Below, piece after piece: positions 2,752 to 23,102 of a stretch of 23,102 nt of DNA. The DNA is from a virus, in IMG/VR virus record IMGVR_UViG_3300021378_000174, positions 1 through 23,102 of that record; one strand, 5' to 3'. The notes beneath the pieces were generated by a model. The model had not been told where the DNA came from. It worked only from the letters and a program-made list of their open reading frames with translations, and did not search any database. The position numbers and the translations under genes were made by a program. Every line of letters starts with the position of its first letter. Position 1 is the first letter of the stretch.

Positions 2752-4383
2752 TTACTGTGTTGATCTTCCACTACCTTGAGGGTTTCTTCCAGTAGTTGTA
2801 GCGACACTATCTGATGCATTATTCATTCTTTCTGCATCTCTTTGTCTGTTACCTGCCAAGTTTGCACGAGCGTCAGTTGCTTGTCTTGGAGTCATCTCAA
2901 AGACTTCATCTCCACCTGGCCTTTGTGGTAATCCAATCTGCTCTCTTGCTTCATTTGGAGTCATTACCTGAGTCTTAATGTATCTTTCAAGCATTTGTGA
3001 TTGAGCTACTTCATCTGTCAAAGTTAATTCATTAAACTTAAGGTTGATTAGATCTGTTTTTGTTTTTACAATCTTATTTACCATTTTTTCAATATATCTT
3101 TGTGCTGGACGAGTTACCTGTTCCTTGAATGTTCTATCTTGAGCCATAGCCGCAGCAAGACCTCCAGTATCAACTCCACCAAGTTTTGAAAGCGGAACCT
3201 GATGAGCCATAAGAATGTCATCCCGATTCTTTTGATGATAGTCATTAAATGATGCTTCTTGAACATTTGCTTCAACAGGAATCATCTTAAAGTCAATAGC
3301 GTTTCCTTGTGAGTCTGCAGGAAGTGGAACATAAAGGGTCCTATGATTCTGACCTTTTAATCCAGTCTGCAAGAATCTAAATAGTCTATCCTCTGACTCA
3401 GAATCAAGTCTTGCTCCCTTGACAACAACAATATACCTTGGAACAGCCTTATTTTCAAAGTAATCTATGTTAAATTGTGCTGCTAACTGATCACCCTTGA
3501 GAGATAGATAAGCAGAAAGAATATCTGGTACACCATAAAATGTGTTTAGTGGTGAGTAGGCTTTAAAGTGAATTACTTCGTTTGGACGAGGATCTTCTGT
3601 GATTGGGTTAGGGTTTGTTGCTCCAAAGTTTCTAAAGTATACTATTTTACCTGCAATAATTTGAGTAAAACCATCACGAATTCTGCGTACCCTCATTGTT
3701 GTAGCTGGAATATGCCCAAGGTATCCAATGTCTCCAGTAACTGTTCTACCAACTTCTAGATAACCATTTCCTGTTGATTCAAGATCAAGAAGAACCTTCT
3801 CCATTGTTGTAGTGAAGCTATCATCATCATTTAGGCTTTCAATCCACTCCATTGCCTCGCCTTTTAGTCTATCTAAGCGGCGGCGAGCCTTTTGCATAGC
3901 TGTTTCGTTCTCCATTGATTCAATTCTAAGAATAACGTCTTTTGCTACATCAAACTTATATCCAAGTCCAACAGTGTTTGACACCTTTGCATCAATTGCT
4001 GCATGATTGGCAAAGTTTGTGTCATAAAAATTTGCAAGTTCGTATAAGTTATATGGCGGTGTTATAACATCAAAAAGTCCATACCCATTTCTAAAAACTT
4101 CTCCTGGATTCATTTGCTTTGACTTGACCCCATCAATGCCAGAAGCCCTCGTTCCCGCTGAAACAGCATATGACCCAGTGGCTCTGCCATCTCTATCTAC
4201 AGGAATGTTTATTGATTTTTCCAACTTATTGTTTGTTCTAGTGGTCCTTCTTTTAAAATTAGTGTTTATTCCATCAAAATCTTTGATCTCTTCCCATGAC
4301 TTGTTGAAAGGATCTTTGGATAGAAACTCATTCTCAACCTCAATGTCATCAGAGTACTTTATAGCAATTCTTTGTTCTTCCAT
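2752..4383 (-). CDS. Portal protein
   Basis: Forms the dodecameric ring at the head vertex through which DNA passes. The protein is 543 residues, within the family's usual length. The first 100 residues are polar and probably flexible. From about residue 100 it shows PPYNLYELANFYDTNFANHA and DAKVSNTVGLGYKF, the membrane-like N-terminal pattern of PBSX/HK97-type portals. Around residues 375-400 the diagnostic NDYHQKNRDDILMAHQVPLS is followed by KLGG, and after it a long helical region (VTRPAQRYIEKMVNKIV) and MTPNEAREQIGLP, a common portal C-terminal signature. The ATG overlaps the stop codon of the upstream 122-residue gene (TAATG), so the two are translationally coupled. Identification rests on these motifs and on the adjacent protease and capsid genes. 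Confidence 0.93.
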   Translation of the reverse strand: MEEQRIAIKYSDDIEVENEFLSKDPFNKSWEEIKDFDGINTNFKRRTTRTNNKLEKSINIPVDRDGRATGSYAVSAGTRASGIDGVKSKQMNPGEVFRNGYGLFDVITPPYNLYELANFYDTNFANHAAIDAKVSNTVGLGYKFDVAKDVILRIESMENETAMQKARRRLDRLKGEAMEWIESLNDDDSFTTTMEKVLLDLESTGNGYLEVGRTVTGDIGYLGHIPATTMRVRRIRDGFTQIIAGKIVYFRNFGATNPNPITEDPRPNEVIHFKAYSPLNTFYGVPDILSAYLSLKGDQLAAQFNIDYFENKAVPRYIVVVKGARLDSESEDRLFRFLQTGLKGQNHRTLYVPLPADSQGNAIDFKMIPVEANVQEASFNDYHQKNRDDILMAHQVPLSKLGGVDTGGLAAAMAQDRTFKEQVTRPAQRYIEKMVNKIVKTKTDLINLKFNELTLTDEVAQSQMLERYIKTQVMTPNEAREQIGLPQRPGGDEVFEMTPRQATDARANLAGNRQRDAERMNNASDSVATTTGRNPQGSGRSTQ

Positions 4384-7700: not shown

Positions 7701-8437
7701 CCATTTTCACAAACAAAATAAGCATTCTGAGAAAGAACCCCATATTGATCTGATGAAACAACTTTATTGGATAGTCCAGAAGATGCTGGAGCGACCTCTG
7801 TTATTGCCCCCAAGCTTTTTGAAGTAAATGGTTCAGACCATTGACCAACAGTTATTCCATTAAAGATAAAGTTATAGTCTCCAGGAGTTCCGCCAGTATT
7901 CACTTTGGCTCTGAAAATTATGTGACAGTAATCTGAGTCAAATTGTTCAATAAGGAAAGTATCTTGTATATGAATCCATTCTCTTCTGTCTGTAGTTGGT
8001 ATTACCGTAAATACCTCAATCCAAGAAGATGTTGCATCGTCATAGTACTCATACCCAATCTCATATTCAGATACATAAAGAGAATCTTGGTAAACATAAG
8101 CACTTATACAAAACGTCTCAAGCTCTTCGCTGCAGTCACTAAAAAGAAAAGTATCTGGACTCTTTGCTTCTATATAAGTTCCGTCCGATAAAGGAACACT
8201 TCCTTCTATTCCAGCATAAATATCACTAGAAAAAGGAGATCCTATATTTGGTAGTTCTAGAGAATCATTAGCTGTTCCATTTGTTATATTCCAACCAAGA
8301 TATGGAGAGTCTGCTTCGAACCTTCTTTGTTGATTTGTAATTAAAGAAATATATGGAAAATCATCATCAATAGGCCAAATACCTATCGGATGTTCTGAAT
8401 ATAGCTTTGCTGCGTACATATTAGAAACGTTTGTCAT
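4769..8437 (-). CDS. Large LamG-like minor tail / adhesion protein
   Basis: A 1222-residue, beta-rich, aromatic- and Asn-rich protein, probably a structural tail or receptor-binding component. The start (MYAAKLYSEHPIGIWPIDDD) resembles the N-terminus of actinophage minor tail proteins as I remember them. Residues about 240-420 look like a LamG/concanavalin-like jelly roll: FTLEFWIKTRPSTKESRRIL, then GFITLVVDGK and FYMLINGEQVAQITVDKNT. Two further stretches, about 580-690 (GKRFEINITGYDITYEFDG) and about 1020-1150 (FIVTPVESLGRLYISARDKY), look like additional, more degenerate jelly rolls. There is no signal peptide or transmembrane segment. LamG domains commonly bind glycans or surface proteins. 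The gene has its own promoter and an AGGAGAG ribosome site, and sits between the reductase and head genes rather than with the fibre array. Tail assignment is an inference from domain type and genome context. Confidence 0.8.
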   Translation of the reverse strand: MTNVSNMYAAKLYSEHPIGIWPIDDDFPYISLITNQQRRFEADSPYLGWNITNGTANDSLELPNIGSPFSSDIYAGIEGSVPLSDGTYIEAKSPDTFLFSDCSEELETFCISAYVYQDSLYVSEYEIGYEYYDDATSSWIEVFTVIPTTDRREWIHIQDTFLIEQFDSDYCHIIFRAKVNTGGTPGDYNFIFNGITVGQWSEPFTSKSLGAITEVAPASSGLSNKVVSSDQYGVLSQNAYFVCENGKALAKNKGIPMIFGSENVTKIYPSLDGSPSFIFPNKEFFTTDGISKDFTLEFWIKTRPSTKESRRILGPIDTNDGVYVSEGFITLVVDGKFSSHNVSYWYRPMLVHIYIKGDAFYMLINGEQVAQITVDKNTVSLSESEWLGIYSYEDINLMEIDCLSIFPYAIPLQLARKHFVWGQGTDPLELINDSFDGEEAIINFANANYTVNKVYPDMERWDAGYYNNLIANTNSISVPDYSLPDIYLGGRDVVEWYSDCKDLNDLLYPSGNHAKNISFRPNIEGDEWVPITGTNWTEPCYLNFTSLTFLSNPLSSFYGIFEVESEVIETRPLLHIVNTLNGKRFEINITGYDITYEFDGQELAGTGFTVANSHFAVGIHIPTISESFNYELASFFGSPEVLSMFVGGNGVSTFEGKIYRIGFSDQENYQSISEHFQENGIADNADEALLDGHYASYTLSPFFRYNAFFLDISVSSKWEEYFPLSSFASYIETSDGATAYDLDYLQFNFGYPSLTTIVETTIDNPDWTYQELFEDYNDPIQKDYGILDNAVLSGYADYADLAGNIITEYQIDTSQSSLDAYVTFQLLAEGADEPLSSFTYTKNLTDSYTVYADNQNTNLDPYKSYKTKFRVIDGTVIYPPKAINFKNVAMVVHFEIEQDGIISNPLKVKNLEITSKSLNQKSLTAIGTKTGTPIYPYVKTGIYYSGKSKNPIMLGKQNLPYLYLTENTGIKVLDTDADIEYGSLIPVNRNRSANYLLGAFQLFMKYDIFQEIGTTQAIFYLTHRDGDIEFIVTPVESLGRLYISARDKYTKQEYSGISFYQNGIKVDNPYIEKYEWNVVAFSFEEPLDMNNFSGSLSLLFGCTYSNISFFKSTGLNEFGVTIARTWEDVLYGDQEIDPGNIVDWQSWYDENGVLEIPNKWKDVYVLEEARQFSTTPKEIYATYTGTNIIVIDDNTGMSVQNDQFSVFSSVIWFEPSYILKPV

Positions 8438-8452
8438 TTACTCTCCTAGTTA

Positions 8453-8461
8453 ATTATAGCA
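8453..8461 (-). promoter_or_regulatory. Extended -10 promoter (TGCTATAAT) for the LamG gene
   Basis: TGCTATAAT on the minus strand, 15 nt before the ATG at 8437. Predicted transcription start is near 8446, at the beginning of GGAGAG, giving a leader of about 9 nt that is essentially only a ribosome site. It directly abuts the hairpin that ends the reductase unit. Confidence 0.65.
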
Positions 8462-8492
8462 AAGCGGGGCAGCCTCAAACGCTACCCCGCTT
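8462..8492 (-). terminator. GC-rich hairpin after the reductase gene
   Basis: A perfect 8-bp stem (AAGCGGGG/CCCCGCTT), then one mismatch and 3 more pairs around a 7-nt loop, lying between the reductase stop and the next promoter. On the minus strand the stem ends in CUUU and runs straight into the next -10 element, so a long U-tract is missing. It probably separates the reductase transcript from the LamG transcript. Confidence 0.65.
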
Positions 8493-8505
8493 CGCAACCA
8501 ACCTA

Positions 8506-10449
8506 TTACGCAGAAACTAGGTCTACAACATCACATGCTCCAGCAGTACATGCTAATTCCTGTGAGCCAGTTGTTGTATCTTCTAGTTCATAAAGTGGAA
8601 GTGATTGCCAAGGAATATTCTCTGGCATTGATTTCACCGCTTTATTGTACTCTTCTTCTGTTATTTCTTGGTATGGCGCTTGTTTATAAGAATGCTCAGA
8701 CAATGGAAGGAATGAAACTCCACCAATTGAGTCAAAATTCTTAAACACCCAAGCACCTACATCTAACCATTCATCCTCTGCAACATTGATAGTTACAGAT
8801 GGATTATGCTCTGTCCAGTGTGTTCTATATGCTTTCCAAACTTCAAGATGATCAATTGCTGAAAGATCCTTTGTTACCGTAGCGTTATCTGGAGCCTTGA
8901 TTGGAAAATAGAAGACTGTAGTCATATCAGGCTTCATCACATCAGGTTCATTTGGAACACCAAAGTCCTTGAGGAATGCTGTTAGTGGATCTTTGTTGTC
9001 TGCACGAACAGAACGAATGTAGTACTTTGAATACCATGGATGAATACCAGAGGAGACTCCAGTTAATTGAGAAACTGTCCCTGAGGGCTTTACTGTTGTA
9101 ATTGCAGTAGAGTGGTTTATTCCAATCTTATCTGCTTCCTTGGCATTTTCGCTTACTGCAAGTTCTCTCATTTTATCAAGCATTGAATTAAGTTCTGGAT
9201 GAAGTGTTCCAGTCAACTTATTTCCAAAGATTCCTGTCAATGAAACTCCAAGCAGTCTTTCTTCTTCTGTATTTGTTTGCCATGTTTTACGAATGTACTT
9301 AAAGTTACTTAGAGTTGATTGCCAAGTACCAAGAATTGTAGCCAGACGGATCTTTGCGGATAGGGTTTTAACGGTATCTTCTGCATCGATAACTACCTCA
9401 GTCAGATTACAAAACTGATTAGCACGCAATAGAATCTCTCCACATGGATTTGTGCCAGCAACTTTTGAAGAGTCTCTACGATCAAACTTATCAATATGCT
9501 TACGAACAGCATCAAGATTGTAAATACCTCTTTCACCTGACTTTGACTCATAAAGGTTTCTCCATTCACGGAGGAACTGAGCAGTGTTTGGCTTTGAATT
9601 ATATACCGCTGAGTTGTTGGCGAGAGCACGCTGCCCTTCTGTTTCCCACCATTGACCACTCTTTGCCTTAGCCATTTCAAAGTCATCAAGGTTAGACAGG
9701 GAAATAAGTGCTGATCGGCGTACTCCACCTACAACAACAACTTCTCCAACCTTGCACATTAGGTCATGTGCCTCAATGGACTTGAGCCTACGACCTTTTG
9801 CAATAGAGAATGTTTCAACAGTAAACTTGAACAAATCATTAAGAGGCTCTGGCCCTGAAGCACGGCCTCCGAAAGTCTTTAGCCTTGCTCCTGATGGACG
9901 AACCTTTGACATATCCCATTCTGGAATCTGTCCTGTAACTAGAAGACCAATTAATTCCTTAAATGATTTTGCCCATCCTAATTTAGAATCTTCAACAACA
10001 ATGGTTGTATTTGTCTGAAACATCTCTTCTGCAACGATAGGAAGGTTCTCAATATATTTCTGTTCTACAGAAAAACCTACTCCTGTTCCATTCATCAAAA
10101 TATACATAGCCTCATCAAAGGCTCTGAGCGAATCTACGGCGATAAAAGAGCAATTGTATGCTGCGATATGGTCTCTTTCTAAAGCTGGCCCAGCTGTCAT
10201 CATGGCTCTCATAGAGGGCATTACCTTGTGACTAAGAATTGCATCTCTTACTTCTGCAAAAGTCTTATCTTTTTGTTCATACCCATAATTCTTTACGAGG
10301 TGATTTGTCATGAAGTCCATATAACGATCTACAGTTTCCACCCATGTCTCCCTCCTGCCTTTTTCTTCCAGCCAACGACTATACCTTGAAACATGAATAA
10401 AATTGCGGTATGGATCTGAAATTGATCCATTTTTGTTAATAAACGACAT
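8506..10449 (-). CDS. Adenosylcobalamin-dependent ribonucleoside-triphosphate reductase (class II)
   Basis: Reduces ribonucleotides to deoxyribonucleotides for phage DNA synthesis, using a B12 radical and needing no oxygen or second subunit. At 647 residues it is of the monomeric RTPR type, somewhat shorter than the Lactobacillus enzyme of about 740. Visible active-site parts are Cys100 (NCSF) and Cys347 (NQFCNLTE), the redox pair; the NPCGE motif with Asn334, thiyl-radical Cys336 and Glu338; VKPSGTVSQLTGVSSGIHPW, typical of class II enzymes; and the C-terminal swinging pair Cys634/Cys639 in ELACTAGACD. All expected catalytic residues are present, so the gene looks functional. The start is supported by AAAGGGTG 7-8 nt upstream and a good promoter. 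It stands alone, flanked by fibre and LamG genes. Phages often carry such enzymes, but usually in the replication region. Confidence 0.96.
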   Translation of the reverse strand: MSFINKNGSISDPYRNFIHVSRYSRWLEEKGRRETWVETVDRYMDFMTNHLVKNYGYEQKDKTFAEVRDAILSHKVMPSMRAMMTAGPALERDHIAAYNCSFIAVDSLRAFDEAMYILMNGTGVGFSVEQKYIENLPIVAEEMFQTNTTIVVEDSKLGWAKSFKELIGLLVTGQIPEWDMSKVRPSGARLKTFGGRASGPEPLNDLFKFTVETFSIAKGRRLKSIEAHDLMCKVGEVVVVGGVRRSALISLSNLDDFEMAKAKSGQWWETEGQRALANNSAVYNSKPNTAQFLREWRNLYESKSGERGIYNLDAVRKHIDKFDRRDSSKVAGTNPCGEILLRANQFCNLTEVVIDAEDTVKTLSAKIRLATILGTWQSTLSNFKYIRKTWQTNTEEERLLGVSLTGIFGNKLTGTLHPELNSMLDKMRELAVSENAKEADKIGINHSTAITTVKPSGTVSQLTGVSSGIHPWYSKYYIRSVRADNKDPLTAFLKDFGVPNEPDVMKPDMTTVFYFPIKAPDNATVTKDLSAIDHLEVWKAYRTHWTEHNPSVTINVAEDEWLDVGAWVFKNFDSIGGVSFLPLSEHSYKQAPYQEITEEEYNKAVKSMPENIPWQSLPLYELEDTTTGSQELACTAGACDVVDLVSA

Positions 10450-10597: not shown

Positions 10598-11446
10598 TTA
10601 TGCAATCCTATAAGCAACAATTACCGTTCCGCCGCCTCCGCTGCCACCACCAGAATAGTAAGAACTACCGCCACCGCCGCCACCACGGGTTCCAGCCGCT
10701 CCTGAACCGTTTCCAGACACCCCGTTGCCGCCACCGTGAGTGCCAGTTCCACCTGTTCCCCATGGTGAAGATCCGCCTCCACCTCCTCCGTAGCCCAGTG
10801 AAGTTCCGTTAATAGTGGATACGACACCTGTTCCACCTGTTCCACCCGTACCTGTATTTCCACCAGCAGCTTGACTACCATTTCCAGTAGACCCTCCACC
10901 ACCACCGCCTTGCTTACGGTCTGGTTCGGAACCATTGTTTCCATAGCCTCCTACGCCACCACCAGTAGTACCACCAGGAGGCCAAGAGTTTCCTCCAGTT
11001 CCACCCGAAGTCCAATATCCACCCGCTGAAGAGCAACAGTTTGCTCCAGGACCACCGCCACCAGCAGTTTGGCTAAATGCTGTAGTCGTTCCACCAGCAC
11101 CACCAGAACCTCCACCACCGCCAACAGCTATTGAATATGATGTTGTACTGAGTGTTATATCTGATCCAGAAATTATTCGACCACCTCCACCACCTCCACC
11201 AGCAATTCGATCTGGATTAACTGAAGAGCCACCTGGTCCACCACCTGCGCCACCACCAACAATAAGATAGTTAAATGTTTTAAGCGCACTTGTAACAGTA
11301 AAAGTGCCACTATCAGTAAATGTGTGAATCTTCCATGTTTCACCAGTACCATTGTAATTAGCTACAGTTGTTTCAGTACCACCAATAGCAGCATTAAATC
11401 TACTACGTCTTTTAGAAACAGCAAATCCAAAACTAGCTAATGTCAT
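10598..11446 (-). CDS. Glycine-rich tail-fibre adhesin
   Basis: A 282-residue protein probably at a tail-fibre tip. An N-terminal beta module (TVANYNGTGETWKIHTFTDS, then GTFTVTSALKTFNYLIV) leads into a long Gly/Ser/Asn-rich region with many runs of 4-7 glycines, and it ends in a strand GGGGTVIVAYRIA. This matches the shape of glycine-rich phage adhesins, in which parallel polyglycine-II helices pack into a sandwich (known for gp38 of phage S16). Shared motifs with the other glycine-rich proteins here include TINGTSLGYGGGGGG and TSYSIAVGGGGG. A CC pair (GANCCSSAGG) is present. The ATG overlaps the stop of the 111-residue gene (ATGA), so the two are coupled. Receptor specificity cannot be read from sequence. 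Confidence 0.85.
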   Translation of the reverse strand: MTLASFGFAVSKRRSRFNAAIGGTETTVANYNGTGETWKIHTFTDSGTFTVTSALKTFNYLIVGGGAGGGPGGSSVNPDRIAGGGGGGGRIISGSDITLSTTSYSIAVGGGGGSGGAGGTTTAFSQTAGGGGPGANCCSSAGGYWTSGGTGGNSWPPGGTTGGGVGGYGNNGSEPDRKQGGGGGGSTGNGSQAAGGNTGTGGTGGTGVVSTINGTSLGYGGGGGGSSPWGTGGTGTHGGGNGVSGNGSGAAGTRGGGGGGSSYYSGGGSGGGGTVIVAYRIA

Positions 11447-11844: not shown

Positions 11845-12636
11845 TTATATTTCCCATCTCAACATTACTATTCCAGAACCACCCAGACCTCTTGCGCCAG
11901 TTGTTGTGGAGCCTCCTCCGCCTGCACCTGTATTTGCTACAGCGTTTCCGCCACCGCCTGATCCAGATATTCCGTTTACGCCACCACTGGCTCCATAGGC
12001 TGCACTGCCACCGCCAGAACCTCCAGCAGCATACCAACTTAGAGTTCCATCAAAATTACTTTGTACTCCCTCACCTCCAGGGGCTGATCCGTTTGCTGAG
12101 TTTCCATTTTGCGTGTACCCACCTCCACCGCCGCCGCCAGCATGGTATTCATTTGTTCCAGATCCAGGAGAGAACCAATTTGCTGAGTATCCTCCAGTGG
12201 CGGTTCCTCCAACACGGCCTCCTTTTAACAAAACTCCAAAAGCGGAAGAATCTTGACCATTAGAATTTGAAACCCCTTGCCCAACAGTTATAGTGTGGGT
12301 TCCTGCTGGTATAAAGATTGATGCTCCCCCAGAAACTGTGGTATCGTGAATATCTCCTGCGCCACCGCCACCGCCGCCTCTGGATGTGCTTCCTGAGTTG
12401 TATCCTCCACCACCAGAACCCCCTGCGCTTAAAACAAAAAGATCTGCATAGCCCTCTTCTTCAACAACAAGGCTTCCGCTTGATAAAAATTTTACCAATC
12501 TATAATTTTTTCCATTGCCAAAGGGGTTTGTTAGGGTAGAAAAAGTAGCATTACTGCTTGCCCCTTCATCTACAGTAACTGTGGGAGCACCACCAGTATT
12601 TACCCAAGCTGCTCCGTCAAAAACTTTTAAAGGCAT
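11845..12636 (-). CDS. Glycine-rich tail-fibre adhesin
   Basis: A 263-residue member of the glycine-rich adhesin set. The N-terminus MPLKVFDGAAWVNTG resembles a fibre-attachment tag. Then come a beta module (KNYRLVKFLSSGSLVVEEEG, YADLFVLSAGGSGGGG), IPAGTHTITVGQG, glycine-rich loops, ANTGAGGGGS and the closing strand GGSGIVMLRWEI. The start at 12636 is chosen over an ATG 15 nt further upstream because it forms a TAATG overlap with the stop of the preceding fibre gene, the coupling style used repeatedly here, and because the protein then begins at the recognisable FDGAAWV motif. It probably acts at the distal end of a fibre together with the coupled 169-residue protein. Confidence 0.85.
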   Translation of the reverse strand: MPLKVFDGAAWVNTGGAPTVTVDEGASSNATFSTLTNPFGNGKNYRLVKFLSSGSLVVEEEGYADLFVLSAGGSGGGGYNSGSTSRGGGGGGAGDIHDTTVSGGASIFIPAGTHTITVGQGVSNSNGQDSSAFGVLLKGGRVGGTATGGYSANWFSPGSGTNEYHAGGGGGGGYTQNGNSANGSAPGGEGVQSNFDGTLSWYAAGGSGGGSAAYGASGGVNGISGSGGGGNAVANTGAGGGGSTTTGARGLGGSGIVMLRWEI

Positions 12637-13145
12637 TAGGCAGACCACCACATATCATAAGCTTCAGCATTAACTGGTTCTGCACTTCCAATCCAGTATG
12701 CCGCTCCAATTCCTGTTGGTCTTGCATAGTTTGCATCTGTTCCATGATTAACTATTATCATAGATTCTGACTTTAATCCATCTACCAGTGAATCAACTGC
12801 TGTTTGGGTATAGGTATTAGCTACTTCATATGTATCAGAAGCAACTACAACCAAAATATCATTTAGTGTTGCTCCAGATGTAATAGTTACAGATGTTCCA
12901 TTTAAAGCAGAGTAATCTAATGATGGAGTAAGAAGCACTCCATTTAAAAACACCTCTACTGCCCCCACGGTATAAGATAAGGTTAAAGAATTATCATCTA
13001 CCCCAGAAAAAAATGTCTGAGAAGATGTAGCAGTATAGACATAGGTAGTTACAAAGGCAAGTGCTTGTGCACCCACAGGATACCAAGTATCTTCACCTTC
13101 ATCATACACATATGCTGGTCTGGCTGTTGTACTTATAGTTGTCAT
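12636..13145 (-). CDS. Tail-fibre protein with beta-knob domain
   Basis: A 169-residue protein. It opens with TARPAYVYDEGEDTWYPVGA, a short repeat common in fibre proteins of cyanophages and other aquatic phages. The middle, TFFSGVDDNSLTLSYTVGAV then EVFLNGVLLTPSLDYSALNG and SVTITSGATLNDILVVVASD, is a beta domain I recognise from marine-phage structural proteins. A short helix (AVDSLVDGLKSE) and GAAYWIGSAEPVNAEAYDMW end the chain. It starts with SD GAGGATG under a TGATATAAT promoter and its stop overlaps the ATG of a glycine-rich adhesin, so it probably forms the shaft to which that adhesin attaches. Confidence 0.8.
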   Translation of the reverse strand: MTTISTTARPAYVYDEGEDTWYPVGAQALAFVTTYVYTATSSQTFFSGVDDNSLTLSYTVGAVEVFLNGVLLTPSLDYSALNGTSVTITSGATLNDILVVVASDTYEVANTYTQTAVDSLVDGLKSESMIIVNHGTDANYARPTGIGAAYWIGSAEPVNAEAYDMWWSA

Positions 13146-14523: not shown

Positions 14524-16179
14524 TTAGTCTATTGGGTAGCGGATAATTACAATGCCTGAGCCGCCGTTGCCTCCAGTCCCAAGGCTATAATTACCACCGC
14601 CACCACCACCTGTATTTGCTGTACCTGCTGTGCTAGGTGCAGATCCACCACCACCATTTCCTCCTGCTCCACTGGGAGCACCACCACCTCCGCCTGCACG
14701 GAAAACTGCAGACCCAGTAATAGAATTAGAAACACCTACTCCTCCAGCTCCACCGCTATTACCACCTACGGAACCAGCTCCTCCGCCGCCGCCGCCTGCA
14801 TTGCTGCTACTCGAACCTCCGTTGTTGCCAATACCAGAAACTCCAAGACCTCCAGAAGATGCTCCACTTGTTCCACCAGCGCCTCCGCCAGATGAACCAT
14901 TTAAACCAGCACTTGTTGAGTTTGCACTTGTATCACCAGCGCCTCCGCCACCGCCAGGAGCATAATAATTTCCCAAACGCGAGGCTTCTCCATTTTGTCC
15001 AGCTCCATTTCTTCCCTGTGGACCTCCTCCAGCACCACCAGCGCCTATGGTAACGGTAAAGGCTCCTGCTTTCAAAAAGGTACTAGGAATATAAACATGG
15101 CCTCCTGCTCCACCACCACCAGCGCGCTCTCTTCCACCACCACCGCCACCACCCTGAACAAGAACATCCACAAACCCTTGAGCATTCACACTCAACGAAC
15201 CAGACGAAGTAAACGAATGAACCTTGTAGGTTTTACCTGCAACACCATTAGAACCATCAGCGACATACGTTGTTTCCGTTCCACCAGACGCTGCTACACC
15301 CGCTGCTGAACCACCAATAATGGTACGGACAATGACAACACCAGAACCGCCAGCACCACTACTACCACTTCCTGAAGTTGCACCACCACCGCCTCCCGTA
15401 TTTGCTGTACCACTTGTTCCAGTCCCTGTTGATGATGCGGCTCCACCTCCCCCTAAACCACCAGACCCTGCTCCGCTAGCAGGAGAAGAACCACCCCCAC
15501 CACCGCCATAAGTAACTGATGAACCAGTAATAGAATCAGCAACACCATTTCCACCACTACCACCAACAGCAGTTGTAGCATTTGCTCCTACGGTTCCTGT
15601 TCCACCTCCGCCGCCACCAGCTCTATCATTAGTCGCTCCACCAATTCCATTACCACCATTTTGACCAAAACCAACCCCTAAACCTCCTAAAGTAAAGCCT
15701 GAACCACCTGAACCACCACCACCACAACTACCACCGGGTTGTCCTAAAGGAGCGCCAGATGCTGCTAAACCTAATCCGCCAAACGGTGCTATTAAATCTA
15801 AGAAAGAAGATGTATTACCCTTTATTCCATCCTGTAATGCTCCAGAAACTCCAGCACCACCAGCACCAACAGTAACAGTGTGGGTTCCTCCGGGAATAAA
15901 GTAATTACTTACTGAAATTATTCCACCAGCGCCGCCACCGCCAGCACCGCCGTCAGTTCGTTTAGCCCCACCAGCGCCGCCGCCAACAACAACTACATCA
16001 ACTACACCAGACGACTGCACAACCAGCGAATCAGAAGACGTAAACGTCCTCACCTCATACGTCACACCACCATCCGTGTATGTAGTACGAGTGCCACCGC
16101 TAGAAATCTGTGCGAACCTACCCGCTGTAGGAATATCTGATCCTGCACCAAGTGCTGTTGATAGTTTAGAAATAGTCAT
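14524..16179 (-). CDS. Tandem glycine-rich adhesin (two modules)
   Basis: A 551-residue protein made of two glycine-rich modules in one chain. Module 1 spans about residues 33-286: TTYTDGGVTYEVRTFTSSDS, VVDVVVVGGGAGG, GGTHTVTVGAGGAG, DSITGSSVTYGGGGGGS, TANTGGGGGA and GGSGVVIVR. Module 2 spans about 300-548 with the same order: TTYVADGS, KTYKVHSFTSSGSLSV, VDVLVQGGGGGGG, GAFTVTIGAGGAGG, NSITGSAVFRAGGGGG, TANTGGGGGG and GGSGIVIIRYP. Each module would form a beta cap plus polyglycine-II sandwich. The ATG overlaps the stop of the preceding glycine-rich gene (TAATG). The duplication suggests unequal recombination between adhesin copies. The product is probably a receptor-binding fibre tip. Confidence 0.87.
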   Translation of the reverse strand: MTISKLSTALGAGSDIPTAGRFAQISSGGTRTTYTDGGVTYEVRTFTSSDSLVVQSSGVVDVVVVGGGAGGAKRTDGGAGGGGAGGIISVSNYFIPGGTHTVTVGAGGAGVSGALQDGIKGNTSSFLDLIAPFGGLGLAASGAPLGQPGGSCGGGGSGGSGFTLGGLGVGFGQNGGNGIGGATNDRAGGGGGGTGTVGANATTAVGGSGGNGVADSITGSSVTYGGGGGGSSPASGAGSGGLGGGGAASSTGTGTSGTANTGGGGGATSGSGSSGAGGSGVVIVRTIIGGSAAGVAASGGTETTYVADGSNGVAGKTYKVHSFTSSGSLSVNAQGFVDVLVQGGGGGGGRERAGGGGAGGHVYIPSTFLKAGAFTVTIGAGGAGGGPQGRNGAGQNGEASRLGNYYAPGGGGGAGDTSANSTSAGLNGSSGGGAGGTSGASSGGLGVSGIGNNGGSSSSNAGGGGGGAGSVGGNSGGAGGVGVSNSITGSAVFRAGGGGGAPSGAGGNGGGGSAPSTAGTANTGGGGGGNYSLGTGGNGGSGIVIIRYPID

Positions 16180-17030
16180 TAGTTAGTCCTCACTCGTACG
16201 ATAATTACACCAGAGCCGCCGAGTTTTCCTGTAGAAGTAGCACCACCGCCACCACCACCTGTGTTTGCTGTTCCATTGGCGTTGCCTGCTCCACCACCAC
16301 CAGCACCGCCAGCGCCATTAGATCCAGCCGAGTAACCCTTAGAGCCACCACCACCACCAGCGTAAGTTACTGCCGAACCAGTAATGCTCGAACTAATGCC
16401 AGCAGCACCAGCGCCACCATTACTTCCTGATCCAGCAGAACCCTTTGCGCTCGCGCCACCTCCGCCACCGCCACCAGCATTGATATCAGCCTGTGTCGAA
16501 CCAGTTCCACCAGAGTACCCGCGTTGATTGCCGCCATTGACGATCAACGGCTGGAGAGTTTGCCCTGCATAAGATCCACCAGAACTGCCACCCATACTGC
16601 CGCCAACACGCGGTCCTGAGTTGGTTCCACCACCACGACCACCACCATACTCAGAAAGACTTAACAATCCTGACGGACTACCCTCAGACATCGCGCTTCC
16701 ACCAGCGCCAATAGTAACAGCTATGCTTCCTTCGGGCAAATAAACATCGCTGTATTCCCAAATTGAGCCAGCACCGCCACCACCACCATTCTGGAACGAA
16801 CTACTTGGACTGCTGTTAGTTCCACCACCACCACCACCAGCGATAATTAATATATCTGCAATACCAGCAGCAGTTACGGTAAGGGTTTCTGTGCTAAGAA
16901 AAGAAACGTATTTGTAGTTCACACCTCCGTCTGTGTAAGTGCCAGTCGGTGTATTAGAAAAGTCAGCACTAGAAATAAAATTAGTATTAGTATTAGGTAA
17001 ACCTGCTTGACTAAAAGATTGTATAGCCAT
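16179..17030 (-). CDS. Glycine-rich tail-fibre adhesin
   Basis: A 283-residue adhesin of the same type: N-terminal tag MAIQSFSQAGLPNTNTNFIS, beta module TYTDGGVNYKYVSFLSTETL followed by IADILIIAGGGGGG, GSIAVTIGAGGS, glycine-rich loops, SSITGSAVTYAGGGGGS, TANTGGGGGG and a closing strand GGSGVIIVRVRTN. It starts only 3 nt after the stop of the 110-residue protein and has no clear ribosome site, so translation probably depends on coupling. Its own stop overlaps the ATG of the 551-residue tandem adhesin. The three genes form one unit: small beta protein, single module, double module. Confidence 0.85.
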   Translation of the reverse strand: MAIQSFSQAGLPNTNTNFISSADFSNTPTGTYTDGGVNYKYVSFLSTETLTVTAAGIADILIIAGGGGGGTNSSPSSSFQNGGGGGAGSIWEYSDVYLPEGSIAVTIGAGGSAMSEGSPSGLLSLSEYGGGRGGGTNSGPRVGGSMGGSSGGSYAGQTLQPLIVNGGNQRGYSGGTGSTQADINAGGGGGGGASAKGSAGSGSNGGAGAAGISSSITGSAVTYAGGGGGSKGYSAGSNGAGGAGGGGAGNANGTANTGGGGGGATSTGKLGGSGVIIVRVRTN

Positions 17031-17409: not shown

Positions 17410-18387
17410 TTATAAGTAAATTTTTAAACTTCCAAGGTAGGCAGTTCCGTTATTTGATGAAAGCGGCGACTCTTCATAATCTACCATTGCTTGAAGAGCA
17501 CCAGATCCATAGCTTATATCTAATCCGCCCAAATAACTTGAATAATCCCAAGTATACCAAAAAACATACCTGCCTCCAGCGTAGTCTAGAGTTTGACTAA
17601 CATAATCATATCCATCAACGTCATCGATAATATCTCCAAATGGTACATTATAATTTGTCTCTGTTATCCATAATTTAGATGGTGCTCCATATGCTGTAAT
17701 TGCATCTAAAACATCTCCAAGATATTCATTCCACTTTTCAGGACCTGTACCGTTTTCTGGATAAATATGGCAAGTTACTCTATCTACGGGCCAGCCTTTG
17801 TCTTGTAGTGCTGACCACCATAGTCCACCTCTTGTCATGCCCCCGCTTGATGTCCTTGGAAGAACTGAAGCAGCTAGAACAAGTGCATCTGAATCAATAC
17901 TCTTTATAGTGTTATAGGCTCTCTGAGTCATTCTTGCAAGAGCCTCTCTCATTGTAGAATCCCAAGGATATAAAAAATCTGCGAGCTGAGGTTCATTCCA
18001 AATTTCATATGCCTTTATTTTTCCTTTATATCTTGTTGCAAGCTCCCATATAAATTTATTCCATTCATCATACCCATTAGAATATGTAGTTCCATATCCA
18101 TCTATGCCACCAGAAGAAGATGGTAGAGAGTTTGAACCTACACCTATCCACTCTGCAGCATTTTCCTGATCTGGATCTCTAGCTATCCATTGTGGACATC
18201 CACCTATTGTAAAAACTATATTCTTTCCTACATAAACTTCATCAATCAAATAATCAAGCCTTGTCCAATCATATACATCTACTCCTAAGTGTATCTGTCT
18301 CCAATATGTTTGATTGTCCCAAAATCTTATCCAAGATATTTGAGATGGTACTGAAAAATTGTCCTCATTAAAATGCATTCCGATCAT
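17410..18387 (-). CDS. Clan GH-A (GH39-like) glycoside hydrolase
   Basis: A 325-residue TIM-barrel glycosidase. Diagnostic motifs are KAYEIWNEPQ with acid/base Glu132 preceded by Asn131, and KLWITETNYN with nucleophile Glu243, the Asn-Glu plus Glu arrangement of clan GH-A retaining enzymes. Supporting elements are an early WIRFWDNQTYW strand, VFTIGGCPQWIA (residues 58-69) and VTCHIYPENG (205-212), a His at a position often conserved in this clan. The general pattern is closest, by eye, to GH39 and its relatives; the exact family and substrate are not determined. There is no signal peptide or lytic-transglycosylase feature. It starts 2 nt after the stop of the MAHFAKID gene and ends the five-gene unit begun at 20301, so it is probably a virion-associated depolymerase acting on host capsule or surface polysaccharide. 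Confidence 0.85.
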   Translation of the reverse strand: MIGMHFNEDNFSVPSQISWIRFWDNQTYWRQIHLGVDVYDWTRLDYLIDEVYVGKNIVFTIGGCPQWIARDPDQENAAEWIGVGSNSLPSSSGGIDGYGTTYSNGYDEWNKFIWELATRYKGKIKAYEIWNEPQLADFLYPWDSTMREALARMTQRAYNTIKSIDSDALVLAASVLPRTSSGGMTRGGLWWSALQDKGWPVDRVTCHIYPENGTGPEKWNEYLGDVLDAITAYGAPSKLWITETNYNVPFGDIIDDVDGYDYVSQTLDYAGGRYVFWYTWDYSSYLGGLDISYGSGALQAMVDYEESPLSSNNGTAYLGSLKIYL

Positions 18388-18389
18388 TG

Positions 18390-18743
18390 CTATACATCCT
18401 CTAATGGATATGGTGGTGGATTATCTATTCCTTCAGCCCATTTATTTTTGGGTGGTATCCATCTCATAAGTTCTTCATTCCAAAAACACTCTTCATGTGG
18501 TTTTTCTTCATTATAGAAACAATCTCTCGTTTTATCCCATATAGATCCAATTGATGCTACATTTTTCCTAAAATTATTATTATATGAAGTTTGAATCCAT
18601 TTTCCAACAAATCCATTATCATTTAAATATTTCTCGCCTATTGAATCTGCATCTGGATAATCTTTTCCATCTAAAAATTCATTATCTACTACAATCACAT
18701 CAATAACTTTGTTATTTTTATCTATTTTAGCAAAATGTGCCAT
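18390..18743 (-). CDS. Small MAH-AKI family phage protein (paralogue 2)
   Basis: A 117-residue protein, MAHFAKIDKNNKVIDVIVVD, then GFVGKWIQTSYNNNFRKNVA, SIGSIWDKTRDCFYNEEKPH and a longer tail with WIPPKNKWAEGIDNPPPYPL. It belongs to the same family as the 86-residue protein at 14226-14486 but is longer, and matches the full-length form I know from cyanophages more closely. The ATG overlaps the stop of the upstream glycine-rich adhesin (TAATG), and the glycosidase gene starts 2 nt after its stop. Function is unknown; repeated placement after a glycine-rich adhesin suggests an accessory role in adhesin assembly or in the fibre. Confidence 0.82.
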   Translation of the reverse strand: MAHFAKIDKNNKVIDVIVVDNEFLDGKDYPDADSIGEKYLNDNGFVGKWIQTSYNNNFRKNVASIGSIWDKTRDCFYNEEKPHEECFWNEELMRWIPPKNKWAEGIDNPPPYPLEDV

Positions 18744-19471
18744 TAGACCTTCACCCTTATTAATACTATTCCACTATTTCCACTTGTACCGTTATTCCCA
18801 CCATTTCCAGTATTTGCTGTCATTGGCTTTCCAGCATTTCCTCCACAACCAAGCTCTCCTGGTGAACCCCATTGAGATCCTGGATTATATCCTACACCAT
18901 TTCCATCTCCAGCTACTCCTCCAGCAGCACCATTTCTACTATCACAATTACCTCCACGCATTTGTGCGCCGATTCTTCCTTGATAATACATACCTGAAGA
19001 TGGAGCTCCTATACCAGAATTTGAGTATGATGAACCACAAGCACCTCCACCACACATTCTATCCCTATACTGAGCTCCAGGAGCTCCACCAACCGATGCT
19101 ATTCCATAAAACTCAGAAGTTCCTGCTGGATGGGACATAGATAAATAGGTTGCTGTTCCTGTTCCAACCCTAATAGGCCAAGTACCTTCTGGGATATACA
19201 AACTTGTCCTTTCCACTTGACCCCCGCCACCTCCAGCACCTCCAGCACCATCTACAACGTTTCCAGCTCCCCCACCACCTTGAACTAAAGCATCTAGGAC
19301 TCCGCCCGATGATATTGTAACCGATCCTGCTCCAGTAAATTTATACACAACATAGCTATCTGAACCTATAGTTACATTTGTGGTTGATGATGCAGTACTT
19401 GATGAAATTATAGCAGGCTGATCTGCGCCGCCAATTCTAATTTCTCCCAAATATAACTTTGTGCTGGTCAT
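18743..19471 (-). CDS. Cysteine-containing glycine-rich adhesin
   Basis: A 242-residue adhesin with the same plan as its paralogues: N-terminal TSTKLYLGEIRIGG, beta module (SDSYVVYKFTGAGSVTISSG, VLDALVQGGGGAG), IPEGTWPIRVGTG, loops, TANTGNGGNNG and closing GNSGIVLIRVKV. It is less glycine-dense than the others and has four cysteines (RMCGGGACGS, GGNCDS, ELGCGG), which the other modules mostly lack; disulphides or a metal site are possible but unproven. The ATG overlaps the upstream stop (TAATG), so it is translated with the 276-residue fibre protein. Confidence 0.83.
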   Translation of the reverse strand: MTSTKLYLGEIRIGGADQPAIISSSTASSTTNVTIGSDSYVVYKFTGAGSVTISSGGVLDALVQGGGGAGNVVDGAGGAGGGGGQVERTSLYIPEGTWPIRVGTGTATYLSMSHPAGTSEFYGIASVGGAPGAQYRDRMCGGGACGSSYSNSGIGAPSSGMYYQGRIGAQMRGGNCDSRNGAAGGVAGDGNGVGYNPGSQWGSPGELGCGGNAGKPMTANTGNGGNNGTSGNSGIVLIRVKV

Positions 19472-21649: not shown

Positions 21650-23102
21650 TCATCGAACATATAACTCTACTCTTGCTGATCTATTCATCCCTGTAGTATT
21701 TTGACAACAGTTGATCCTGTCTCCTGCAGAATAGCTTTGAAAGTTTCCAGTCATTCCTATTCCACCTGAAACGTCATCTGAGTCCATGTTTCCATTTGGA
21801 TATAATCCTCCACCATTTTCATTCCATCCAAATCCCCACCTGGTCCTACCCCAACCAGGATTATTTCTAAAGTTAAAACCATAAAAACGTACATCTACTT
21901 GAGAAGAAAAAACTCCATTTCCCCATCCAGAAAAAAGTCTTGCATCTCCAATAAACCAATTTGTTACGCTTGACCAAAATGTTATTGGAACAATTCGTGA
22001 ACCGCGATAAAAATTGTTTTGTAGCCAAGTCCACATTCCTCTGCCAGCAATGCTTCCCCCTGAACCTATATCTGGGAACCTTGCCATCATATCTTTTGCT
22101 GGAAAATAATTCATAACATCAAATTTTGCATCACCATCTGAGGTATTTGTTTGAGTTGGGTTTAATGTTGTAGCTGTTGTCCAATGTGTAGAATCAAAGT
22201 TGAACGTTGTACCCCTTGTGGCCTTCATCATCATCATCCATCCACCTCCATCATAGTTTGAGTCCATTATGCAATAAACTTGCTTAGGACCAACTGTTGG
22301 TAAGTCAATCCAATACAATCCGTCAATACTTGATGGAAAATTTTCTTTAATATGTTGAGCTGATGGAGCAGCATTCTCTATTGTTATTCCATCTAGTGTA
22401 GACGGAGAAACAATTAAAGATGGAGAGCTTGTTGGATACCTAACAATAACTATTCCAGATCCTCCCTCTCCTCCATTGTTGTTAGCATTATAGTGAGATC
22501 CTGCACCACCACCACCACCAGTATTTACCCCTGCATTACCACCTCTAGTATTTGTTTGACTATTTGGGCTTCCGCCTAAACCAGCTTCTCCTGGGTTTAA
22601 TGCGGAACCGCCTCCTGGAGCAGTTCCTACTGCACCACCTCCGCCTCCTCCAATTCCTCCTGTTCCTCCATTAGAAAGAGAATATGCAGAACCGCCTCCA
22701 CCACCAGCCCAGTATAAGTTATACCCTAAAATATCGTTTAGTATTCCTGGTCCACCATCAGACTGATATACAGTTCCTACCCCTTCTCCTCCTGCTCCCC
22801 CGCCACCACCTGAGCGATAAGCCATGGTAGAGTTTCCTCCTCGAAACCCCTGACCAACAGTTCCAGATCCACCATAAAACGTTCCTGCGTTATCATTATA
22901 TCCGCTAGACCCTCCTCCAGAGCCGCCATTGCCACCTGCAATTCCTGGTGCATACGCTCTATAAGAACTACCCCCAAATCCACCACCTATAGCGATATAC
23001 GGTCCTAAAATTGAATTACCTCCGTTTGTTGCTGGAATGGAGTACTGATGACTCGCTGGCTGTGTACTCCCTCCGTCTGATCTTATCTGGCTTGCACCAG
23101 GG
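21650..23102 (-). CDS. Glycine-rich adhesin fused to a fibrinogen/intelectin-like lectin domain (5' partial)
   Basis: The frame is open past 22825 to the right edge, so the ATG there is internal; 483 residues are visible and the N-terminus lies outside. The first 220 or so visible residues are a glycine-rich adhesin module (GSGTVGQGFRGG, NLYWAGGGGGS, VNTGGGGGAGS) closing with GGSGIVIVRYPTSSP. Nucleotides 22393-21653 encode a C-terminal domain of about 245 residues resembling fibrinogen-like/intelectin folds: IDGLYWIDLPTVGPKQVYCI then MDSNYDGGGWMMMMKATRG, later WGFGWNENGGGLYPNGN, a Cys-Cys pair, and a terminal strand SARVELYVR. In animals such domains bind glycans or acetylated groups. Here it probably binds a host surface ligand. 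Fold assignment is by pattern; ligand residues are not established. Confidence 0.85.
   Translation of the reverse strand, partial: PGASQIRSDGGSTQPASHQYSIPATNGGNSILGPYIAIGGGFGGSSYRAYAPGIAGGNGGSGGGSSGYNDNAGTFYGGSGTVGQGFRGGNSTMAYRSGGGGGAGGEGVGTVYQSDGGPGILNDILGYNLYWAGGGGGSAYSLSNGGTGGIGGGGGGAVGTAPGGGSALNPGEAGLGGSPNSQTNTRGGNAGVNTGGGGGAGSHYNANNNGGEGGSGIVIVRYPTSSPSLIVSPSTLDGITIENAAPSAQHIKENFPSSIDGLYWIDLPTVGPKQVYCIMDSNYDGGGWMMMMKATRGTTFNFDSTHWTTATTLNPTQTNTSDGDAKFDVMNYFPAKDMMARFPDIGSGGSIAGRGMWTWLQNNFYRGSRIVPITFWSSVTNWFIGDARLFSGWGNGVFSSQVDVRFYGFNFRNNPGWGRTRWGFGWNENGGGLYPNGNMDSDDVSGGIGMTGNFQSYSAGDRINCCQNTTGMNRSARVELYVR
21653..22393 (-). other. Fibrinogen/intelectin-like domain region
   Basis: The part of the adhesin gene coding the lectin-like domain. 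Key features are GLYWI at the start, VYC followed by MD and GGGW, and a C-terminal WGFGWNENGGG, Cys-Cys and ELYVR. It is much poorer in glycine codons than the upstream half of the gene, a sharp compositional join typical of domain fusion. Confidence 0.7.

Follow-up and report, generated by a model that had tools for sequence, protein, structure and literature searches.

Does the phage protein encoded at the edge of this contig end in a lectin of the intelectin type, known as a component of chordate innate immunity, and if so what could such a domain do for a virus? The window, the whole stretch of DNA analysed here, is an IMG/VR virus record of 23,102 bases. The open frame in question occupies positions 21650..23101 on the minus strand and encodes 483 aa, its 5' end being open at the contig edge. 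The frame reaches the edge of the window without a start codon, hence the true N-terminus is missing and lies beyond the contig; a 22-base exact probe from the contig edge, used to search for the missing N-terminus, found no match in the viral collection. The original prediction, made from the sequence, saw in this frame a lectin-like fibrinogen/intelectin domain fused to a polyglycine adhesin. The motifs GLYWI, VYCIMDSNYDGGGW, GGGLYP and the terminal ELYVR are all found in the frame, and the C-terminal domain, put at about 245 residues, spans about 249 residues (21653..22399, minus strand), with the NF040941 match, AlphaFold2 and VIA-align as evidence for it. It is preceded by an N-terminally incomplete glycine-rich module (22424..23101, minus strand) that resembles Gly_rich_2 (PF21722) and phrog_2295.

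The lectin-like, fibrinogen-related domain is real by sequence. The window protein scores 43.3 bits against a curated cut-off of 30 with NF040941 (GGGWT_bact), the NCBIfam model for the fibrinogen-like YCDxxxxGGGW signature, which covers only 46 residues and is silent on the remaining 200 and on function. The domain also aligns to most of phrog_1325 (E 3e-40) and has 80 related loci in IMG/VR as well as relatives in 16 phage records, all of them cyanophages, including those of Synechococcus and Prochlorococcus. NF040941 is matched by 45 of 45 aligned relatives (E up to 1), and these sequence comparisons place the family far beyond chance similarity. The Pfam family Fibrinogen_C (PF00147) does not match the window protein at E up to 1, and only one of the 45 relatives matches it (E 9e-4). 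The nearest relatives of the window domain are found in other virus contigs (69% identity) and in cyanophages (64.5%). The description of the domain as known best from animals needs qualifying, as a bacterial GGGWT model exists, some phage proteins already bear a fibrinogen C-terminal name and the closest homologues identified here belong to phages and aquatic bacteria.

Members of the family combine an invariant core with variable loops and carry insertions around model residues 139-170 and 182-192. Invariant positions among the 45 aligned sequences include G58, W60, R193-G195, G197-N199, D215, D233 and C237-C238. W60 belongs to the GGGW motif of the fibrinogen-like segment (22238..22249, minus strand), and conservation in the family peaks in the block RTRWGFGWNE (mean entropy 0.47), which lies within RWGFGWNENGGGLYP (21797..21841, minus strand). 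The only conserved cysteines are C49 and the pair of neighbouring residues C237-C238 (21704..21709, minus strand), which is present in 43 of 43 aligned members and is perhaps a vicinal disulphide, judging from the alignment.

A search of the PDB with the domain as a single sequence returned chance matches only. The family profile ranks lamprey intelectin (E 1.3e-6), XEEL (7e-6) and human intelectin-1 (ITLN1; 1.7e-5) higher than tenascins and ficolins, with the matches to intelectins (E 1.3e-6 to 4.5e-5) confined to the GGGW segment. An AlphaFold2 model of the domain built with 43 sequences is confident (pLDDT 91.2, pTM 0.91), and its best six Foldseek matches in the PDB are intelectins, followed by ficolins. 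VIA-align superimposes this model onto ITLN1 with a Z score of 15.2 over 215 residues at 3.4 Å, onto XEEL with 15.0 and onto the lamprey lectin with 14.1, the next entry being ANGPTL6 at 8.2. Another model, which was built on a different alignment and covers the whole 483-residue frame, gives 15.7, 15.5 and 14.8, again with the next entry at 8.2. With both models five intelectin entries come out on top (Z 14.1-15.7, about 215 residues, rmsd 3.3-3.7), and other fibrinogen-related domains reach a Z of about 8 at best. The structural alignment, which is that of a predicted structure, extends to ITLN1 residue 313 and so includes the C-terminal lobe. The domain is thus modelled as the intelectin variant of the fibrinogen-related fold. 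A confident model with an unrelated fold had been named as the outcome that would speak against the original prediction; the confident model obtained instead places intelectins first by a wide margin. Since both models and the family profile agree on this order, the lectin claim stands, on the intelectin side.

The analogy is narrower at the level of sequence. The HMM-HMM alignment with intelectin, for which the human ITLN1 sequence was checked against PDB chains, has a probability of 95.9 over 43 columns and is confident there only. When the middle and C-terminal parts are compared with three intelectins, column shuffles score as well in 58/200, 60/150, 26/150 and 89/150 cases; the C-terminal lobe, which in intelectin holds the sugar-binding calcium, aligns no better than shuffles (58/200). 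HENxxxGxCTxGD is the structural calcium motif of intelectins (PMC9682848). It is absent from the aligned family, which reads KATRGTTF...W after GGGW, and the domain is for this reason called intelectin-like rather than filed as an intelectin. The carbohydrate site of intelectins is formed by residues 243, 244, 260, 262, 263, 274, 288 and 297 (PMC8324875), and because similarity outside the GGGW segment is not above chance these ligand residues cannot be placed with confidence on the phage domain. When a global HMM alignment is forced, N199 falls opposite N260, N208 opposite E274 and D215 opposite D282, with a lobe score at shuffle level; as the alignment is no better than column shuffles, the pairings are tentative and serve as leads only. 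On this alignment, not significant alone, RWGFGWNENGGGLYP would tentatively be the counterpart of the ligand and calcium region N260-E274 of intelectin, and the most invariant stretch could owe its conservation to structure instead of ligand binding.

That the ligand residues are not mappable is in keeping with the suggestion that the tip binds a receptor protein rather than a sugar, in the manner of the fibrinogen-like domains of angiopoietin and tenascin. Fibrinogen-related domains do also recognise proteins, and both tenascin and angiopoietin occur further down the match lists. However, the structural matches favour intelectin, the lectin branch, by about 7 Z units, and one bacterial homologue is fused to PA14 and lies beside a LamG-like ORF, so that binding to a receptor protein is considered unlikely.

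The second part of the original prediction, the polyglycine adhesin that forms a fibre tip and thereby creates a double receptor-binding head, fared less well. A glycine-rich N-terminal part is certainly present, with 33% glycine in the first ~226 residues before the lectin domain, but it resembles the Gly_rich_2/phrog_2295 kind of module rather than an adhesin family. The match to phrog_2295 has an E value of 3.8e-30, and that to PF21722 (Gly_rich_2) reaches E 0.0038 and 17.7 bits in this N-terminally incomplete protein, under the cut-off of 24.3. Relatives of the same layout score mostly 31.7-117 bits with Gly_rich_2, one of them (L023) only 20.3. In the whole-frame model the glycine-rich part is unfolded (pLDDT ~35). 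No match to a T4-type gp38 polyglycine adhesin was found for this part in Pfam or PHROGs, in a setting where profiles serve glycine-rich low-complexity sequence poorly and the model leaves the module unfolded; "adhesin" is an interpretation of this part. Further glycine-rich ORFs of the phrog_2295/Gly_rich_2 kind lie in the tail region at 10598-11446, 11845-12651, 14524-16179, 16179-17030 and 18743-19471, all on the minus strand. This kind of module is thus found in no fewer than five other ORFs, in one of them in two copies, and is a building block that the phage uses repeatedly in its tail region. A double head is unsupported, since many relatives with the lectin domain lack a glycine-rich part and the stretch before the domain varies widely among 44 distinct complete phage proteins (fewer than 40 residues in 14/44, 400 or more in 5/44), which argues that the lectin domain is independent of the glycine-rich part. 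The latter may rather be a spacer or a module for attachment to the virion.

The lectin module forms the C-terminus of 44 or more distinct complete phage proteins whose N-termini differ greatly. The leaders range from fewer than 40 to more than 1300 aa and include Gly_rich_2, Laminin_G and fn3 modules, and some phages carry more than one copy of the lectin domain. Carriers have T4-type portals in 9 of 26 records and HK97-type portals in 2 of 26, and by these sequence matches the module is spread over cyanophages and unrelated phages. In S-H9-1 and ACG-2014h the lectin gene directly follows a giant tail-fibre gene, and in P-TIM40 it lies in the tail-fibre gene region, a few genes past the giant fibre gene. 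In 15 loci it is followed by a downstream gene of about 120-160 aa that is absent from the window and whose S-H9-1 example has no PHROG match. At 7923-8758 of locus L072 the lectin gene is split into three overlapping frames.

The domain might instead help to build or decorate the virion, as a head fibre, a capping or a trimerisation domain would, and make no contact with a receptor. Many virion structural proteins do end in small beta domains and the glycine-rich protein families encountered here have no tested function, yet a tip is the better fit for a domain that closes the chain after unrelated stalks, is present more than once in certain phages and sets variable loops on a constant core, and only a low probability is assigned to the structural role. 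The C-terminal position, the swapped N-terminal modules, the invariant core and the variable loops together point to an exchangeable receptor-binding tip.

The window also encodes a phage portal, protease and capsid. Some of its ORFs match tail or tail-fibre families of PHROG, and a phage tail tip domain is present as well. Three ORFs, all on the minus strand, are nearest to large Streptomyces phages: the portal (2752-4383; 46-47% identity), the capsid (227-1375; 43-45%) and the ribonucleotide reductase (8506-10449; 62%). On account of these affinities the phage looks actinophage-like and its host is likely to belong to the Actinomycetota. The portal of the window had no match in eight carriers of the lectin domain, an absence that carries no weight because all of them are fragments. 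Among the tail genes, the ORF at 17410-18387 (minus strand) resembles cellulase GH5 and GH39 weakly, with scores under the cut-off, and possibly encodes a glycosidase.

Relatives also occur in 40 genome contigs, mostly from aquatic Bacteroidota, Actinomycetota and Verrucomicrobiota, and many of these cellular relatives are large or apparently secreted proteins. Homologues of aquatic Bacteroidota share about 60% identity and have signal-like N-termini. A protein of Flavobacterium ammonificans combines the GGGWT domain with a PA14 domain. The chromosome of this species (L087) has three GGGWT matches, two of them above cut-off, within ~8.5 kb, and the neighbours are secreted fibre-like ORFs, one with an apparent S74-type chaperone end, and the LamG-like ORF; from its gene content this looks like a bacterial adhesin cluster that resembles phage tail fibres. 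In the tree, virus and cell sequences each cluster but neither forms a single group, and well-supported branches force at least two changes between virus and cell. A P-TIM40-like lectin gene is located on NODE_6 of Nonlabens xiamenensis (L088), which at 188,235 bp is close in size to the P-TIM40 genome (188,632 bp) and is probably a cyanophage contig inside a bacterial assembly.

Such cellular copies raise the question of whether the gene is a cell-type surface adhesin that is merely borne by the phage and serves the infected host rather than the virion. The apparently secreted homologues of aquatic Bacteroidota, some of which lie in adhesin-like clusters, are in keeping with this. The phage copies of isolates, however, adjoin tail-fibre genes, and the complete 529-aa glycine-rich version of the phage type (L088) starts MSLLKVSSI and has no evident signal peptide, which makes a host adhesin very improbable.

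The favoured explanation, held with reasonable though not high confidence, is that the protein is a subunit of a phage tail appendage, a fibre or fibre tip, with a C-terminal receptor-binding tip of the lectin type that adopts the intelectin variant of the fibrinogen-related fold. Its basis as computed here is the sequence family, the predicted fold, the constant C-terminal position in phages and the swapping of N-terminal modules. It is proposed that the C-terminal tip is displayed on the virion and binds a glycan or glycopolymer of the host surface. By analogy with intelectins, a bound metal and vicinal hydroxyls would probably mediate this binding. Phages and aquatic bacteria would appear to swap the domain as a ready-made surface-binding module.

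Intelectins and X-type lectins (ITLN1, XEEL, lamprey LSSL/LSVL) share with the phage domain the same predicted fold, to the C-terminus over about 215 residues (Z ~15), and an N-terminal fibrinogen-like segment with GGGW. They differ in that identity is only ~15-19%, with significant similarity in the GGGW segment only, and in that the phage and bacterial domain is devoid of HEN...CTxGD and is attached to stalks. The C-terminal part of phrog_863 (tail fiber assembly) has the same glycine-rich and lectin layout, and phrog_1325 is listed as "unknown function"; neither family states a fold or a ligand. Fibrinogen-like phage domains were already known from annotation, as was the NCBIfam model of the bacterial GGGWT domain. 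Phage proteins annotated as "Fibrinogen C-terminal domain-containing" (P-SSM4, Pseudomonas phage PaBG) have a fibrinogen-related fold, but their structural matches (E 4e-6 and 6e-3) are far weaker than that of P-HM2 E3SSV2 (TM 0.85), and they are probably other fibrinogen-related branches. The mosaic adhesive trimers of Bdellovibrio are likewise phage-like fibres, and their interchangeable tips adopt known adhesive folds; the tips described comprise TNF-like, C-type lectin, S74 and new folds, with no mention of intelectin or fibrinogen (PMC10769870). In marine phages the most variable genomic islands often hold genes for recognition, lectin-like and fibrinogen-like ones among them (PMC3909814). 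A phage fibrinogen-related domain was proposed in 2022 as the source of intelectins in a study which states that the intelectin domain does not exist in bacteriophages (PMC9682848), a statement with which the phage domain as modelled here disagrees at the level of the fold. A search of the open-access literature found no paper in which a phage tail protein is given an intelectin fold.

For most phage receptor-binding tips neither the fold nor the ligand class can be assigned from sequence. Linking phrog_1325, a module of dozens of marine and freshwater phages, to an intelectin-like fold supplies a ligand hypothesis, namely metal-dependent binding of microbial glycans with accessible diols. The presence of an intelectin-like fold in phages also bears on the origin of intelectins. 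A far-reaching and rather improbable extension would be that intelectin stems from an older family of bacterial and phage surface-recognition folds, in which the phage domains would be calcium lectins for microbial diol glycans that are exchanged among cyanophages, actinophages and aquatic bacteria, and from whose pool the animal gene would descend.
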